The notes below the pieces were generated by a model, which saw only the letters and a list, made by a program, of their open reading frames with translations, was not told the origin of the DNA and ran no database searches. A stretch of 36,582 bases of DNA from IMG/VR virus record IMGVR_UViG_3300034523_000299, positions 1 through 36,582 of that record; one strand, written 5' to 3'. The position numbers were made by a program, and so were the translations under genes. This document shows, piece after piece, positions 3,097 through 10,151 of the stretch (positions within the stretch are counted from its first letter, which is position 1; each line of letters begins with the position of its first letter). Source of the stretch: a virus.

Positions 3097-4278
3097 TCAC
3101 ACCCCCTTCACGACATCGGCAGTGACCAAGGGCTCGCCGATCTGTGCGGCCAGGTTCATGGCAGCCTTGACCAGGTTGCTGAGCGCAAGTGGGTACAGTT
3201 GACTGGACTTGTCACGGCCGCTAGTGCTCAGGCGCTGGATGATCGCCTGGATACCGCACTGGCTGATGACCTCCTGGAGGGGCTTTTGAAGCCGGCCGAA
3301 GCGGAACGCAAGGTGCTGCTCTACGGCGGTAACGGAGATGGGAGACAGTTCCACGATCTCCACCCGCTGCGCCACCTCCCGTACTTCGCCGTTACGCGGG
3401 CTCAGCTTGTGCAGCAGTTCGGGTTGACCGATCAGGATGATCGAGATCAGCTTGGTAAAGCCTCCAACCTCCAGCTCGCGCAGTCGCTTCAATTGCTTCA
3501 AGGTCGGGATGGGCAGCGAGTGTGCCTCTTCGATGATCAGCAGATGCCGGTTGCCTGCAGCATGGCTGGTCTTCAAGGCACGATGCATCTGAGCGAAGCG
3601 GGCCTCAGGTGACGACTTGGTTTTCTCCAGGGGGGCCACGGCAGCCATGATCGCTTCCGCAATATGGGTGCTTTTCAACGTCTTGCCCTTGGTGTCGTTG
3701 TCCTCCATCGCGAGGATGTACGGTTCGATCACCATCACCGGGGCGCTTTCCGCTTCTAGGCGATTATGCAAATCGCGACGCAGCGTGCTCTTGCCCGCGC
3801 CGGACTCACCGATCACCGCGAGGAAACCGTCATGGCGAGCCACTTGATACATGGACTCACGGACGTAGCGGATATCGGGGCTTACATACATGTCTTCGGC
3901 ATCCTGCAGCTCATCGAGCGGATCGCGGAAAAGGCCGAATTGTTTTCGGGTGGCTGGTGTCAGCACCTGTTTGGCCATTAGCATGGGCTCGCACTCCTGT
4001 TCGTTTACTTGGTCGTTTTCGGGTGGGGATGCAGGGGCCTCGGCGTTGGCGCGTCGAGGCTCCGTCTCTTCAAAGGCTGCAGCGATGGCCGCAACATTGG
4101 CGCCGCGCTGGGCAAGGAACGTTTGAATTCGCCCCTGCAGAGCGTTGCGATCCAGCGACTTTGGCCACTGGTTGTGGTTGATCAGTTGGGCGATAGCGGC
4201 CTGGCTCAGATCGACCGCACGGGCCAGTTCGGCCTGTGGGACCTTGATCTCGGCGAGCACGTCCTTGAGCTTCAACAT
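3097..4278 (-). CDS. B: Transposition target-DNA ATPase, MuB type
   Basis: A 393-residue AAA+ ATPase that, in Mu-type phages, coats target DNA, activates the transposase and gives target immunity. An N-terminal helix-turn-helix (about 13-40, ELARAVDLSQAAIAQLIN) precedes a linker rich in acidic residues and proline. The Walker A motif GESGAGKST is at 157-165 and the Walker B motif LLIIEEAH at 246-253. The ATPase region resembles ExeA/TniB as well as MuB. The protein is longer than Mu B (312), mainly in the linker. The ATG shares one base with the transposase stop (TGATG), so the two are translated together. It works with the gene at 4278-6035. Confidence 0.93.
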   Translation of the reverse strand: MLKLKDVLAEIKVPQAELARAVDLSQAAIAQLINHNQWPKSLDRNALQGRIQTFLAQRGANVAAIAAAFEETEPRRANAEAPASPPENDQVNEQECEPMLMAKQVLTPATRKQFGLFRDPLDELQDAEDMYVSPDIRYVRESMYQVARHDGFLAVIGESGAGKSTLRRDLHNRLEAESAPVMVIEPYILAMEDNDTKGKTLKSTHIAEAIMAAVAPLEKTKSSPEARFAQMHRALKTSHAAGNRHLLIIEEAHSLPIPTLKQLKRLRELEVGGFTKLISIILIGQPELLHKLSPRNGEVREVAQRVEIVELSPISVTAVEQHLAFRFGRLQKPLQEVISQCGIQAIIQRLSTSGRDKSSQLYPLALSNLVKAAMNLAAQIGEPLVTADVVKGV

Positions 4279-6035
4279 CAGGCATTACCTCCTACTACGC
4301 GCAGGCCTGGCCGGGCTGGCGCACGCAGTTGCTGGGTGATGGCGTCGAGCTGATCTTCCGGCACGCCGTTGGGGTAGCTGGACTTGAGCCAGGCCATGGA
4401 GTCGGCGGTCCAACTGCTCCCGAGCTGGGCACGCAGCAGCTTTGCCGCCTCGACGTGGGAGAGCGGTTGGATCTCCACGGTCGGCGCGGCAATGGGCGAA
4501 GCAACGCCGCGCCGTGGCATGTAGGACGGCAACACCGTGTCGGTGATGTGCTTGTGCGGATCGATCTCACCGTTGAACGGCAACGCCCGCGCCTTGCGTG
4601 CAGCAGCTGCGTCATCCTGGGATGCGGTCCCGGTGACCAGCTGTTCGATTTCCTTGCGTGCTTTCTGCGCAGGGGTGTCGGCGTGGGACTTGAAGGATTC
4701 GCCGATCACTGCCGAGGTCGCCTTGAAGCCGTTGGCATCGATGGCGATTCGCTCGACCACATGGAAAACTTCCCGGCCGTCATCGTTTGTCATCACCACC
4801 TGGGCGCTGTCCTCATCGCGCCAAGGATTACGGGTGATCAGCAAGGTATCGCCCACCATGACCTGGGGAATGGCAGATACATCGAACTGCCCGCCGCGAT
4901 AGGAAACCTGGAGGAAGTCATTGACCTTCCGCGTTTCAGGTGCGGTCACTGCCAACTCTCGACATACCTCCACGGAGGGCGCCAGCCGCAGTTGGGCAGC
5001 TTGAATGGTCAGCCACTGCCCATAACGGGTACGACGATGGCGGGTATGGACGGCGGTGGCGTTGTGATAACGCATCCACTGACCCGCCCAGCCGTTGATC
5101 TGCTCCAGCGTTTCGGCCTTCTGCAGCTTCAAGGCTGACTCGAACTCACGCTCAACGATGTTGTGGGCTTGTTCTACCTGTCCTTTGGCGCGGGCATTGC
5201 CCACCTTGTTGATAATCAGCTCGATGCTCAGCGCCTTGCACAGGTTGCGGAAGATCGCCGAAGTCATGGCCGCACCAGGGTCAGTCATGATGATGAACGG
5301 CACACCATGGAATGGATCGTTTTCGCCACGCTTCTGCATGCAGCAGATCAACACGTTGCACAGGTTCTCGGCAGACTCGGCGCCCAAGACGTACTGCACA
5401 TAGATAGTGCCGCTGGTATGGTCGGTGATGACATAACGCCACAAGCGCTTGCGTTCGATCTTTTTCAGGTTGGTTGGCTTGCCGTCATAGAACTCGGCCT
5501 GGCTCATGGTCTTGGCGCCGTCGTCGTCCAGATAGAACTGGGTGGAGATCGAGGCGTCGATTTGCCAGACGTGGTTCGGGTGCCGGCTGGCCAGCGAAAC
5601 GGCCGGCTCCGGTTGCAGCAGTTGATCTGGGTGCAGACGGTAGGTACGCAGCGCACGGGTGATAGAGCTGATCGACAGCGGTACGAACTCACCAGTTTTC
5701 TCGTCGACGCGACCGGCCAGGATCTTGCCATTGCTGCGCAGCCGCTCCACTGCACGCTCAACGGTGGAGAGCTGTTTGTTGTTGGCGCGGATCGACTCCA
5801 GGAGCAATGCCGAGATCATGTAGGCCTCTGGCTCGCTTAGTGTGGTCTGGCCTGCGTCGGCACGGCGCTTGCGAGGGGGATTCACAGTGACCTCCCGAAG
5901 TTTTCGATAGATGGTCGGCAGGGACAGGCCCAGCTCAACGGCCGCTGTTCGGCAGAGCTCGGTGCGCTGGCCATGCGGGGCTACTTCCACCGCACGGGCC
6001 AGGTCTACGAGGCGTTGGGTCACAACGGCGTTCAT
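4278..6035 (-). CDS. A: Phage transposase, MuA type (DDE)
   Basis: A 585-residue transposase that cuts and joins the phage ends during integration and replicative transposition. The N-terminus has a helix-turn-helix-like region (about 25-48, ELGLSLPTIYRKLRE). The RNase H-like core shows the catalytic triad: D160 in WQIDAS, D252 in IMTDPGAAM and E288 in KGQVEQAHN, with 35 residues between the last two (DD35E). A Mu-transposase C-terminal barrel follows (about 375-440), then a basic C-terminal tail likely to contact the ATPase. It is somewhat shorter than Mu A (663), and the N-terminal end- or enhancer-binding part looks reduced. It is followed directly by the B gene. Confidence 0.95.
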   Translation of the reverse strand: MNAVVTQRLVDLARAVEVAPHGQRTELCRTAAVELGLSLPTIYRKLREVTVNPPRKRRADAGQTTLSEPEAYMISALLLESIRANNKQLSTVERAVERLRSNGKILAGRVDEKTGEFVPLSISSITRALRTYRLHPDQLLQPEPAVSLASRHPNHVWQIDASISTQFYLDDDGAKTMSQAEFYDGKPTNLKKIERKRLWRYVITDHTSGTIYVQYVLGAESAENLCNVLICCMQKRGENDPFHGVPFIIMTDPGAAMTSAIFRNLCKALSIELIINKVGNARAKGQVEQAHNIVEREFESALKLQKAETLEQINGWAGQWMRYHNATAVHTRHRRTRYGQWLTIQAAQLRLAPSVEVCRELAVTAPETRKVNDFLQVSYRGGQFDVSAIPQVMVGDTLLITRNPWRDEDSAQVVMTNDDGREVFHVVERIAIDANGFKATSAVIGESFKSHADTPAQKARKEIEQLVTGTASQDDAAAARKARALPFNGEIDPHKHITDTVLPSYMPRRGVASPIAAPTVEIQPLSHVEAAKLLRAQLGSSWTADSMAWLKSSYPNGVPEDQLDAITQQLRAPARPGLRVVGGNA

Positions 6036-7943: not shown

Positions 7944-8225
7944 ATGGGTAATGAGCTGCAGCGCTTGCAAGCACAAGTGGAGGCGCAGAGCTTCGTGATC
8001 GAAGCGCTGTTGCGGATCTGTGTACAATCAGAGTCGATTGAGCCGTTGGCCGTGGCCAGGGAGTGGCGTGAGTTCCGGCAAAGCCCGACATTCTTTGCTG
8101 CAGACGCTGTAGCGAAGCGGCGATTGGCAGATGAACTGGATGCTTGGGCTGATGTGCTCATCATGCAACTTCCAGAGCGTTGGCCGGATCGGTGCAGATC
8201 TCGCCCGCTTTCAGGCCCAGCTTGA
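7944..8225 (+). CDS. Small coiled-coil protein, reverse to early operon
   Basis: A 93-residue protein encoded opposite to its neighbours, filling the gap between the Cro-like gene and the next leftward gene. The ATG at 7944 has an AAAGGGG ribosome site seven bases upstream. The N-terminus (QRLQAQVEAQSFVIEALL) looks like a coiled coil, followed by a conserved-looking block AREWREFRQSPTFFAADAVA. The last 65 bases overlap the 3' end of the Cro-like gene tail to tail. I do not recognise a function. It may be expressed in lysogens or act as an antisense transcript to the early operon. It is probably real because it fills a gene-sized gap and has good coding character. Confidence 0.68.
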   Translation: MGNELQRLQAQVEAQSFVIEALLRICVQSESIEPLAVAREWREFRQSPTFFAADAVAKRRLADELDAWADVLIMQLPERWPDRCRSRPLSGPA

Positions 8226-8385
8226 TGGCGATTTCATGAGTCTGGCCGCGTACGCACTTTTTGCGTCCGCCCAGCACCTCGAACACCAGGTTCGGGGAAA
8301 ACTTGTTGGCGACTGCCCATTGGGTGATCGAAATGCCCTTGGCCTTGAGGTCCGCACGGGCCTGGTCGGGGGTACGTAGCTTCAT
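8161..8385 (-). CDS. Cro/Ner-like DNA-binding regulator
   Basis: A 74-residue protein with a single helix-turn-helix (about 18-45, GISITQWAVANKFSPNLVFE, then VLGGRKKCVRGQTHEIAIKLG). It resembles small Cro-like proteins of prophages. As the first gene of the leftward early operon, directly behind the early promoter and facing the repressor, it should play the Ner/Cro part: damping early transcription and repressor synthesis once lytic growth begins. A ribosome site (AAGGAG) is visible upstream of the ATG on the minus strand. Its 3' end overlaps the convergent gene at 7944-8225. Confidence 0.82.
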   Translation of the reverse strand: MKLRTPDQARADLKAKGISITQWAVANKFSPNLVFEVLGGRKKCVRGQTHEIAIKLGLKAGEICTDPANALEVA

Positions 8386-8466: not shown

Positions 8467-8472
8467 GATAAT
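8467..8472 (+). promoter_or_regulatory. Possible -10 of the repressor promoter
   Basis: GATAAT lies 33 bases before the repressor ATG and matches the sigma-70 -10 at five of six positions. No good -35 is found 16-18 bases upstream (best TTCGTG/TCGTGG), so this would be a weak maintenance promoter. Its start point would fall within the operator palindrome, which would allow autoregulation. This is inference from sequence only. Confidence 0.4.
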
Positions 8473-8496
8473 GGGACATTAATGTCTCATGGTCAA
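8468..8496 (-). promoter_or_regulatory. Leftward early promoter
   Basis: Read on the minus strand, TTGACC (8496-8491; five of six to the -35 consensus) and CATTAT (8473-8468; four of six to the -10) are separated by exactly 17 bases. This is a good sigma-70 promoter pointing to the Cro-like gene and the whole transposition operon. The spacer is filled by the operator palindrome 8471-8490, so repressor or Cro binding should block polymerase directly. Confidence 0.72.
8471..8490. promoter_or_regulatory. Immunity operator palindrome
   Basis: ATGGGACATTAATGTCTCAT is symmetric at 18 of 20 positions, with a perfect 12-bp core GACATTAATGTC. It lies between the divergent Cro-like and repressor genes and fills the spacer of the early promoter. 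Such a palindrome at this place is expected to bind the dimeric repressor, the Cro-like protein or both. No second full copy is visible in this gap, so control may rest on a single site. Confidence 0.72.
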
Positions 8497-8505
8497 GAGG
8501 CTTTT

Positions 8506-8916
8506 ATGTCCAATGGCGTGGGTGAACGAATCGCTCAGCTTCGCGGCTCGATGAAAATCGGAGATTTCGCGGAGTGTCTAGGGGTGAATCGCAAGACGAT
8601 TAGTCGCTGGGAGGCTGGTGAAGCGTTGCCGGATGGCTCCTCGTTACTCGCACTTCACAAGAGCTTCGGGGCGGCACCGAGTTGGGTGCTGTTGGGAGAG
8701 GCGACAAGAGGGGAAGATCCACCGCTGTCAGCAGAGGAAGGGCTATTGCTGGAACGATACCGTCAAAGTCCGGTGGCACTGCGGAAAGCGGCATTGCGTG
8801 TACTGCTGGGCGAAAAGCCCGTGACCCGTAGCTTCAAAGAAGTGGGCCAGTATATTGAGGGGGCCGTGAACCAAGCTGGTCTGACATTGAATGTCGGGGG
8901 CAAGAGGAAGAAGTAA
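8506..8916 (+). CDS. Lysogeny repressor (HTH_XRE, c-like)
   Basis: A 136-residue protein with an N-terminal XRE-type helix-turn-helix (about 6-60: MKIGDFAECLGVNRKTISRW, EAGEALPDGSSLLALHKSFG). It lacks the LexA-like peptidase domain found in many phage repressors. A middle helical segment (76-103) may dimerise. The C-terminus carries a glycine/asparagine-rich module (110-132, with VGQYIEGAVN) that recurs at the start of the next protein. ATG 8506 is chosen because it has AAGAGG upstream; an in-frame extension to 8446 would run through the operator. It lies divergent to the early operon and probably represses it. Confidence 0.85.
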   Translation: MSNGVGERIAQLRGSMKIGDFAECLGVNRKTISRWEAGEALPDGSSLLALHKSFGAAPSWVLLGEATRGEDPPLSAEEGLLLERYRQSPVALRKAALRVLLGEKPVTRSFKEVGQYIEGAVNQAGLTLNVGGKRKK

Positions 8917-8918
8917 CC

Positions 8919-9509
8919 GTGAGCAAGGAATTCCAGTCTGTTGGGCAATACACCGAAGGCCACATCAACAACTACGACGTTCAGATCAACATGGCTGGAG
9001 GGTCCGAATTCCGACCACTTGTTCCCGCCCAAAAGAAAGAGTTATACGATCTGGGCATCAGGTGTACCGAGCTTGGAGCTGACTCCAAAGACATTTGGCG
9101 TGCCGTATTCGCAGAGCTTGGTGTAAAGCAGATCGGAGACATCGCGACGGAGCATTTCCAGCAGGCACGCAATGTGCTGCAGAGTCGACTCGATGCCCTG
9201 TTGGAGGAGGAGGATAAACGACGCCTAGTCGGCAAAGTCCTCCGGCTAGCCACAGAAAAAGATGCGAGAGTTGAGCTCAACGATTTCTGCGATGTCACTT
9301 TCGGTCGGACGCACCTCAACAAGCTAAAGCGAGTAGAGCTTCAACGAGTGCTGGAATTTGTTCAGGGCTTTCAGGTCAGTCCGGTCTCAGTTGAGACCAC
9401 AATCAAAGTTCCGCAGCGCATGCCGCTGCGTGAGTTCTTGCTGACCCACAGGGCGCACGCCACAGGCCTGTTTGTCTTTGGGATTATCGTTGGGAAATTC
9501 TGGTTCTGA
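8919..9509 (+). CDS. Tail-anchored protein sharing a repressor motif
   Basis: A 196-residue protein that I do not recognise, starting with GTG two bases after the repressor stop. Residues 5-28 (F-x-x-VGQYTEGHIN and onward to GG) repeat the module found at the end of the repressor. The body is helical and charged (about 35-165). The last 20 or so residues are a single hydrophobic segment (ATGLFVFGIIVGKFWF), suggesting a tail anchor in the inner membrane. Close coupling to the repressor implies expression in lysogens. It could modulate the repressor or provide a lysogen trait such as phage exclusion. Both are inferences. Confidence 0.72.
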   Translation: MSKEFQSVGQYTEGHINNYDVQINMAGGSEFRPLVPAQKKELYDLGIRCTELGADSKDIWRAVFAELGVKQIGDIATEHFQQARNVLQSRLDALLEEEDKRRLVGKVLRLATEKDARVELNDFCDVTFGRTHLNKLKRVELQRVLEFVQGFQVSPVSVETTIKVPQRMPLREFLLTHRAHATGLFVFGIIVGKFWF

Positions 9510-9542: not shown

Positions 9543-10151
9543 ATGTCTGGTGTCGTCTTCACCCTTGGTGTGATTTTTGTGGTGGCTGCCATGGCAGGCC
9601 TGTTGAAGCCAGAAATATTCAAGGACAGAAAAACGGGGGAAGTGCCCAATCGATGGCAGGTCTTCTTCGGCGGGATTATGGTTGCGGCGGTCGCGTTTTT
9701 CATCGCTCATAATTCAACTCCTGAACCTAAATCTGAGACCGCCTCCTCGGGCGTTCAGGCTGACTCGCCGGTTTCCCAGGGGCCGATTTATTCGAGCGGC
9801 AGCCCTGATGCGTTGGTCGCAGCCACCCGGCTGATGGAGGCACTGGATAAAACTATGCTCGCGGGGCAAAGCGTGATTCTTCATGGCGACTTGCAGGCAT
9901 TGGGCGCGCACAGTCGGTTATTCGGGGACTTGGTCGCATCTGCAAAAGAGCAGTTTGGCTCCACGATTTACGAAAAACTCGGAAGCTGTGGAATTGCTAG
10001 CGGCAATGCCCGTAGCTGGTGGCAGGCCCAACTTGCTGCTCAGAAGGATGGTTCAGAACCTGTTCCAGGTGCAATTAAAGAGTTCCTGGGGCAGTACCAA
10101 GACAATAGGGAAAGCTGCCTAGAGTCTGCGGGCCAAGTAACTAACGGCTGA
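9543..10151 (+). CDS. Two-helix membrane protein, unknown function
   Basis: A 202-residue protein with two hydrophobic segments, about 4-21 (VVFTLGVIFVVAAMAGLL) and 41-57 (VFFGGIMVAAVAFFIA). A soluble C-terminal part (about 60-202) has a serine/glycine-rich linker and two cysteines (about 149 and 194). AAGGAG lies six bases before the ATG. It follows the tail-anchored gene by 33 bases and precedes the lysis block. Base composition here is lower in GC than the head genes, consistent with an acquired lysogen gene. A role in superinfection exclusion is possible but unproven. Confidence 0.7.
   Translation: MSGVVFTLGVIFVVAAMAGLLKPEIFKDRKTGEVPNRWQVFFGGIMVAAVAFFIAHNSTPEPKSETASSGVQADSPVSQGPIYSSGSPDALVAATRLMEALDKTMLAGQSVILHGDLQALGAHSRLFGDLVASAKEQFGSTIYEKLGSCGIASGNARSWWQAQLAAQKDGSEPVPGAIKEFLGQYQDNRESCLESAGQVTNG

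Follow-up and report, generated by a model that had tools for sequence, protein, structure and literature searches.

Short repressors that lack a RecA-cleavable domain are found in many temperate phages, and their route of induction is often obscure. In phage VP882, the small antirepressor Qtip relocates and inactivates the CI repressor; to our knowledge, Qtip is not a co-transcribed membrane protein and has no tag in common with its repressor. In the Mlc-EIICB(Glc) and MalT-MalK systems, the regulator is tethered to a membrane protein and thereby kept away from DNA. Lysogens of lambda (cI-rexA-rexB) and of CarolAnn (genes 43-44-45) express a membrane protein together with the immunity repressor (PMC6426606). 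Finally, bacterial BASS pairs consist of an NLR and a BELL effector, and the passages on these pairs in PMC7889193 and PMC12261475 describe a motif of ~20-40 residues that is common to the ends of the two proteins encoded by adjacent genes, one of which is membrane-targeting. Term searches of these two papers returned no passages on phages, repressors or transcription.

The locus studied here has elements of several of these systems. It lies in a window of 36,582 bases, the whole stretch of viral DNA that was analysed (IMG/VR record IMGVR_UViG_3300034523_000299), which, judged from its gene content, is probably organised as in transposable phages of the Mu/B3 kind. A repressor of 136 amino acids is encoded at 8506-8916 on the plus strand and comprises a P22 c2-like helix-turn-helix (HTH) head, two helices and a C-terminal tag. 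Only 2 bases separate its stop from the GTG start of the partner gene (8919-9509, plus strand), whose product of 196 amino acids comprises a tag, a Flk-like helical domain predicted to be cytosolic and a C-terminal hydrophobic helix. The purine-rich, Shine-Dalgarno-like stretch AGAGGAAGAAG (8903-8913, plus strand), which lies inside the codons for the basic end of the repressor (KRKK), probably serves the partner GTG. A small HTH gene, which matched phrog_925 (E 1.1e-25) and is a probable Ner/Cro-like early regulator, is encoded divergently at 8161-8385 on the minus strand, and an operator-like palindrome, ATGGGACATT/AATGTCTCAT, lies between the divergent genes at 8471-8490. The third gene, 3' of the partner (9543-10151, plus strand), encodes a hydrophobic N-terminus and a phrog_23218 domain. 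Relatives with this domain come after the partner, or straight after the repressor, in G125, G276 and Komp_PAO1_1, and in G125 and Komp_PAO1_1 the protein starts with a signal-peptide-like stretch; the product is possibly a periplasmic component belonging to the same operon as the repressor and partner.

The repressor head (residues 1-65) matched Pfam HTH_3 (E 4e-6) and the fold of the P22 c2 repressor (E 5e-4), and the window repressor thereby has the DNA-binding fold of the P22 c2 and lambda-type HTH heads. Two helices, within residues 76-100, stand between the head and the tag, and the AlphaFold monomer model places beta strands at residues 115-122 and 125-131 of the tag, with low confidence. 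None of the 45 related repressors matched the S24 peptidase domain, which is the C-terminal domain of the autocleaving LexA/CI-type phage repressors. Given this absence, the usual RecA-stimulated self-cleavage is unlikely for this group.

The segment that the sequence-only reading had found in common to the two proteins is real. The repressor tag FKEVGQYIEGAVNQAGLTLNVGG (residues 110-132; 8833-8901, plus strand) and the partner tag FQSVGQYTEGHINNYDVQINMAG (residues 5-27; 8931-8999, plus strand) agree at 10 of 23 positions in an ungapped alignment; the repressor residues given in that reading were right, and its partner segment, 5-28, ended one residue too far. The Smith-Waterman score of the 40 C-terminal residues of the repressor against the 40 N-terminal residues of the partner was 62. 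The maximum was 47 among 20,000 shuffles and 38 among 729 motif-less adjacent same-strand ORF pairs, and a score of 62 was reached by 2 of 60,000 random ORF-end pairs. The identity is held at the protein level, since eight of the ten identical residues are encoded by different codons and the DNA identity is 32/69. The same figures rule out a recent DNA duplication of the tag.

With regard to the partner, residues 29-169 (9003-9425, plus strand) matched NCBIfam NF007987 (Flk; E 6.5e-18), the match beginning past the tag, and the protein also matched phrog_5825 (E 1.3e-42). Its Flk score of 65.1 bits lies far under the equivalog cutoff of 353, whereas a true Flk scores 507. Flk (RflH) acts as a brake on the flagellar secretion switch and is anchored in the membrane (PMC13344023). 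The phage partner, which resembles Flk in this domain and in a predicted C-terminal membrane anchor, need not itself have a flagellar role. In the AlphaFold monomer, helices extend across residues 36-149 and the tag is of low confidence. The C-terminus is hydrophobic (best 15-mer at residues 182-196, KD 1.71) and is modelled as a helix over residues 178-195 (9450-9503, plus strand), which makes a tail-anchored partner, as suggested earlier, plausible. Searches by sequence found no solved structure for the Flk-like body and no meaningful match of the GQ or GRDY tag (defined below) among solved structures, and a Foldseek search of the partner against PDB and BFVD returned nothing at E <= 0.001. 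In a VIA-align comparison of partner residues 34-97 (9018-9209), the C-terminal domains of the phage annealing proteins Sak and Red-beta came out on top (Z 7.6, 7.0 and 6.8; next 4.9). The Sak structure matched by the partner model is a complex with the SaPI2 Stl repressor. The likeness to Sak and Red-beta is suggestive, not significant, and may serve as a lead only, such Z values being within reach of unrelated helical bundles. Pfam GemA gave a weak match in 27 of 49 relatives, and a GemA-like gene product, judged by eye, is encoded in the window at 363-812 on the minus strand. The partners tested against the PADLOC anti-phage library, including that of the window, had no match; one hit to Cas10, at E 0.02, carries no weight.

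The tags recur well beyond this phage. Loci were gathered through homology of the partner body alone, and in all 60 that were examined, near-copies and the window included, an HTH repressor whose tail carries the matching tag type lies upstream. The GQ type, to which both tags of the window belong, is defined by VGQYxEG or the related VGQxxxGxI, and the GRDY type by G-x-x-N-R-x-A-G-R-D-Y/F-x-E. Window-type bodies with a GRDY tag were found at L004, L012, L020 and L021 (80%, 74%, 49% and 52% identical over the matched part), and the repressors of these four loci also carry a GRDY tag, on heads unlike that of the window repressor. A tree of the partner bodies, from which the tag was excluded, showed 4 changes of tag type, at least 2 of them on well-supported branches; the repressor tag followed that of the partner at every change, the independent events being too few for a significance test. 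Conversely, repressor heads differ where the tails are retained. Between the window and G276, the tails are 83% identical and the heads 26%; between the window and G125, the values are 87% and 33%; and among the repressors of Burkholderia phages AP3, KS5 and Carl1, they are 80-91% and 51-54%. The domains on either side have thus been exchanged and the tag pair retained, the tag rather than the body being the constant part. In Fc02 and JBD25, which served as controls, the repressors (53% and 33% identical to that of the window over the matched part) have no tag, as expected, and the lipoprotein-like gene downstream of them is also untagged. Absence of the module from other related repressor/partner pairs was one of the refuting conditions set by the sequence-only reading, and recurrence was found, strongly and nearly always as a pair, with the type changing jointly in both genes. 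Co-swapping alone is nevertheless no proof of co-selection, because adjacency lets one crossover carry both tags. This linkage is a real caveat, yet it would leave unexplained both the resemblance of tags within a type and the drift that they have undergone jointly. In 70 distinct GRDY pairs, a tag resembles its cognate more closely than it does a re-paired one (p 2e-4, kinship ignored), both tags of the pair read GRDL at L232 and L233, and L234 has rare variants in both genes (AGGTY/AGNNY).

Whole-genome profile searches led to the same picture. At E <= 0.001, the GRDY profile matched 10 genomes in one family sample of 298 and 10 in a second of 198, and 18 of these genomes had exactly two matches; those read in detail showed an adjacent repressor tail and partner head. 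The GRDY tags form an adjacent same-strand pair in 19 of the 20 genomes. Among the genomes with a single match, G213 also has a pair, with tags that drifted jointly (KVKGNNNRTAGGTYNE with KVKGNGNRVAGNNYYE), and G436 has a tagged repressor and no partner. Strong matches to the GQ profile were obtained in 4 genomes, all with adjacent pairs, which brings the two profiles together to 23 of 24 genomes. The operon of G125 encodes, 1.3 kb further downstream, a third GQ-tagged membrane protein. On the reverse complement of L278 (L277), a membrane protein of ~130 amino acids with two transmembrane (TM) segments, the second there to bear a GQ tag, is encoded at 3496-3885, in one operon with a GQ repressor/partner pair. 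In a phylum-wide sample of 398 genomes, four matched the GRDY profile, none of them new beyond the two families. A broadened GQ profile had no match in 198 relatives of G002 or in 398 phylum genomes, both being sets without a positive control. A search of 5,426 complete genomes of E. coli found a close relative of one pair in 520, and at least 80% of the pair is covered in 509 of these. Two tagged repressors without a partner gene were found, at L251 and in phage Komp_PAO1_1. The latter (L282, 1366-1899) carries the GQ tag QSFHGPVGQAAQGDIKNGPGFVLNV, has no tagged neighbour and represents a natural partner-less case. In phage 520873 (L011, about 3770-4400), the partner gene is frameshifted between tag and body, which may mean either that the partner is dispensable for carriage or that the sequence is at fault.

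The bodies of tagged partners are of at least five mutually unrelated kinds, and TM segments are predicted in every kind. A scan for the GRDY tag pattern and its follow-up gave the Flk-like, the zinc-ribbon plus TM, the L111, the L124 and the L180 types; the bodies of B3 and Ps59 belong with that of L124, and those of AP3, KS5 and Carl1 form another kind. Nearly all complete partners passed the hydrophobicity cut-off for a membrane segment. Those under it are mostly cut by contig ends, and the anchors of Pseudomonas Flk-like partners are close to the threshold. This range of bodies supports the location of the partner at the membrane that had been suggested for the window protein. Known phages are among the carriers: the pairs of B3 (ORF18/ORF20) and Ps59 are GRDY-related and their partner body has two TM segments, and those of Burkholderia AP3, KS5 and Carl1 are GQ pairs with a further, different body. 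The partners of Ps59 (L221, 2572-3168) and L020 (2819-3511) show a second G/N-rich beta-like segment past the first tag (VGGDQAGNISLGGTQINIQ and IKIKGNSGNINFGTQVTIG, respectively), which may represent a tandem tag or a third type.

Compared with the described systems, the locus is similar to the BASS pairs in that a short motif is common to the ends of proteins encoded by adjacent genes. It differs in having a phage HTH repressor of ~130 amino acids in place of an NLR receptor (NB-ARC/NACHT), with the tag at the C-terminus of the repressor and at the N-terminus of the membrane protein. The BASS motif forms templated amyloid; for the repressor tag, the monomer model shows beta strands at low confidence. 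By analogy, the repressor/partner pair may work like the homotypic motif pairs of NLRs and their effectors, but it is not a member of BASS. The likeness to cI-rexAB is one of layout, a same-strand membrane gene directly 3' of the repressor (gap of 2 nt in the window and mostly 3-25 nt in relatives); cI-rex and CarolAnn are tested exclusion systems for which no common tag is reported. With Qtip, the likeness concerns the proposed outcome, in which a phage protein would relocate or inactivate the repressor. Mlc-EIICB(Glc) and MalT-MalK differ in being host metabolic genes without a homotypic tag in common.

Starting from the observed tags, their occurrence in pairs, their co-swapping and the predicted membrane bodies, we propose a two-gene lysogeny module in which the repressor ends in a beta-like tag of ~23 residues and the downstream membrane protein starts with one that matches it in type. 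The tags would pair homotypically, in the manner of a beta sheet, and would thereby tether the repressor to the inner membrane, on its cytoplasmic side. We give slightly better than even chances to this reading, in which a co-expressed inner-membrane protein would provide a RecA-independent handle on lysogeny. Its most likely consequence, of which we are less sure, is that docking would withhold the repressor from its operators and lower the amount of free repressor, so that induction would depend on the membrane protein. With similar reserve, the membrane protein may be a changeable sensor body whose amount or state would set the timing of induction, and its control may replace RecA-driven repressor cleavage.

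The main rival to docking reverses the direction of control. The membrane protein would be a lysogen-expressed exclusion or membrane-damaging effector of the RexB/BELL type, held inactive or seeded by the repressor tag, and loss or titration of the repressor, for example on superinfection, would turn it on. Its position right after the repressor is like that in cI-rexA-rexB and CarolAnn 43-45 (PMC6426606), adjacent tag-sharing genes with a membrane effector resemble the bacterial amyloid signalling pairs in the relevant passages of PMC7889193, and the pair is retained in E. coli (at least 80% covered in 509 of the 520 matching genomes). However, the Flk-like and zinc-ribbon bodies are not pore-like, the partners tested have no PADLOC match, and in some phages the partner is absent or broken and the repressor is not evidently lost. 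We regard reverse control as unlikely. We are still more doubtful that the tags, instead of binding each other, have one host or phage protein as their common ligand. The joint drift within pairs (GRDL/GRDL; AGGTY/AGNNY) and the presence of two tag types over unrelated phages fit mutual pairing better, even though a short motif in common often indicates a ligand in common and orphan tagged repressors exist.

The two remaining explanations dispense with any interaction. Tags that arose from an old duplication at the junction could have been co-inherited, lying within about 100 bases of each other, and have no functional pairing. We consider this very improbable: amino acids are kept where codons differ, at least two tag types exist and each is matched within pairs, the tag is borne by unrelated partner bodies, and single-tag genomes are nearly absent, and against these points stand the very tight linkage and the recombination breakpoints that flank the junction. 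As for a chance likeness of two glycine/asparagine-rich segments in this phage alone, the motif is short and 2 of 60,000 random ORF-end pairs equal the score, but this score lies outside the distributions of shuffled and of motif-less adjacent pairs, and recurrence at dozens of loci refutes the idea, leaving it a negligible probability.

If docking is taken further, matched tags would act as compatibility groups in a widespread class of lysogeny switches, in which homotypic and possibly amyloid-like tags couple repressors to exchangeable membrane sensors and allow RecA-free induction by the state of the membrane or envelope. We hold this wider reading only tentatively and would not call it probable. 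If true, repressor and sensor cassettes would mix only inside one tag type. The open-access PMC literature that was searched yielded no description of a tagged repressor and membrane-protein pair, and the novelty of the pair is provisional. A related pair occurs in roughly one complete E. coli genome in ten and in the known phages Pseudomonas B3 and Burkholderia KS5 and AP3. For phages whose repressors lack a cleavable domain, the recurring matched-tag pair offers a directly testable answer to the question of induction; it would tie prophage control to the envelope and would widen the reach of homotypic tag signalling beyond immune receptors to the control of transcription.
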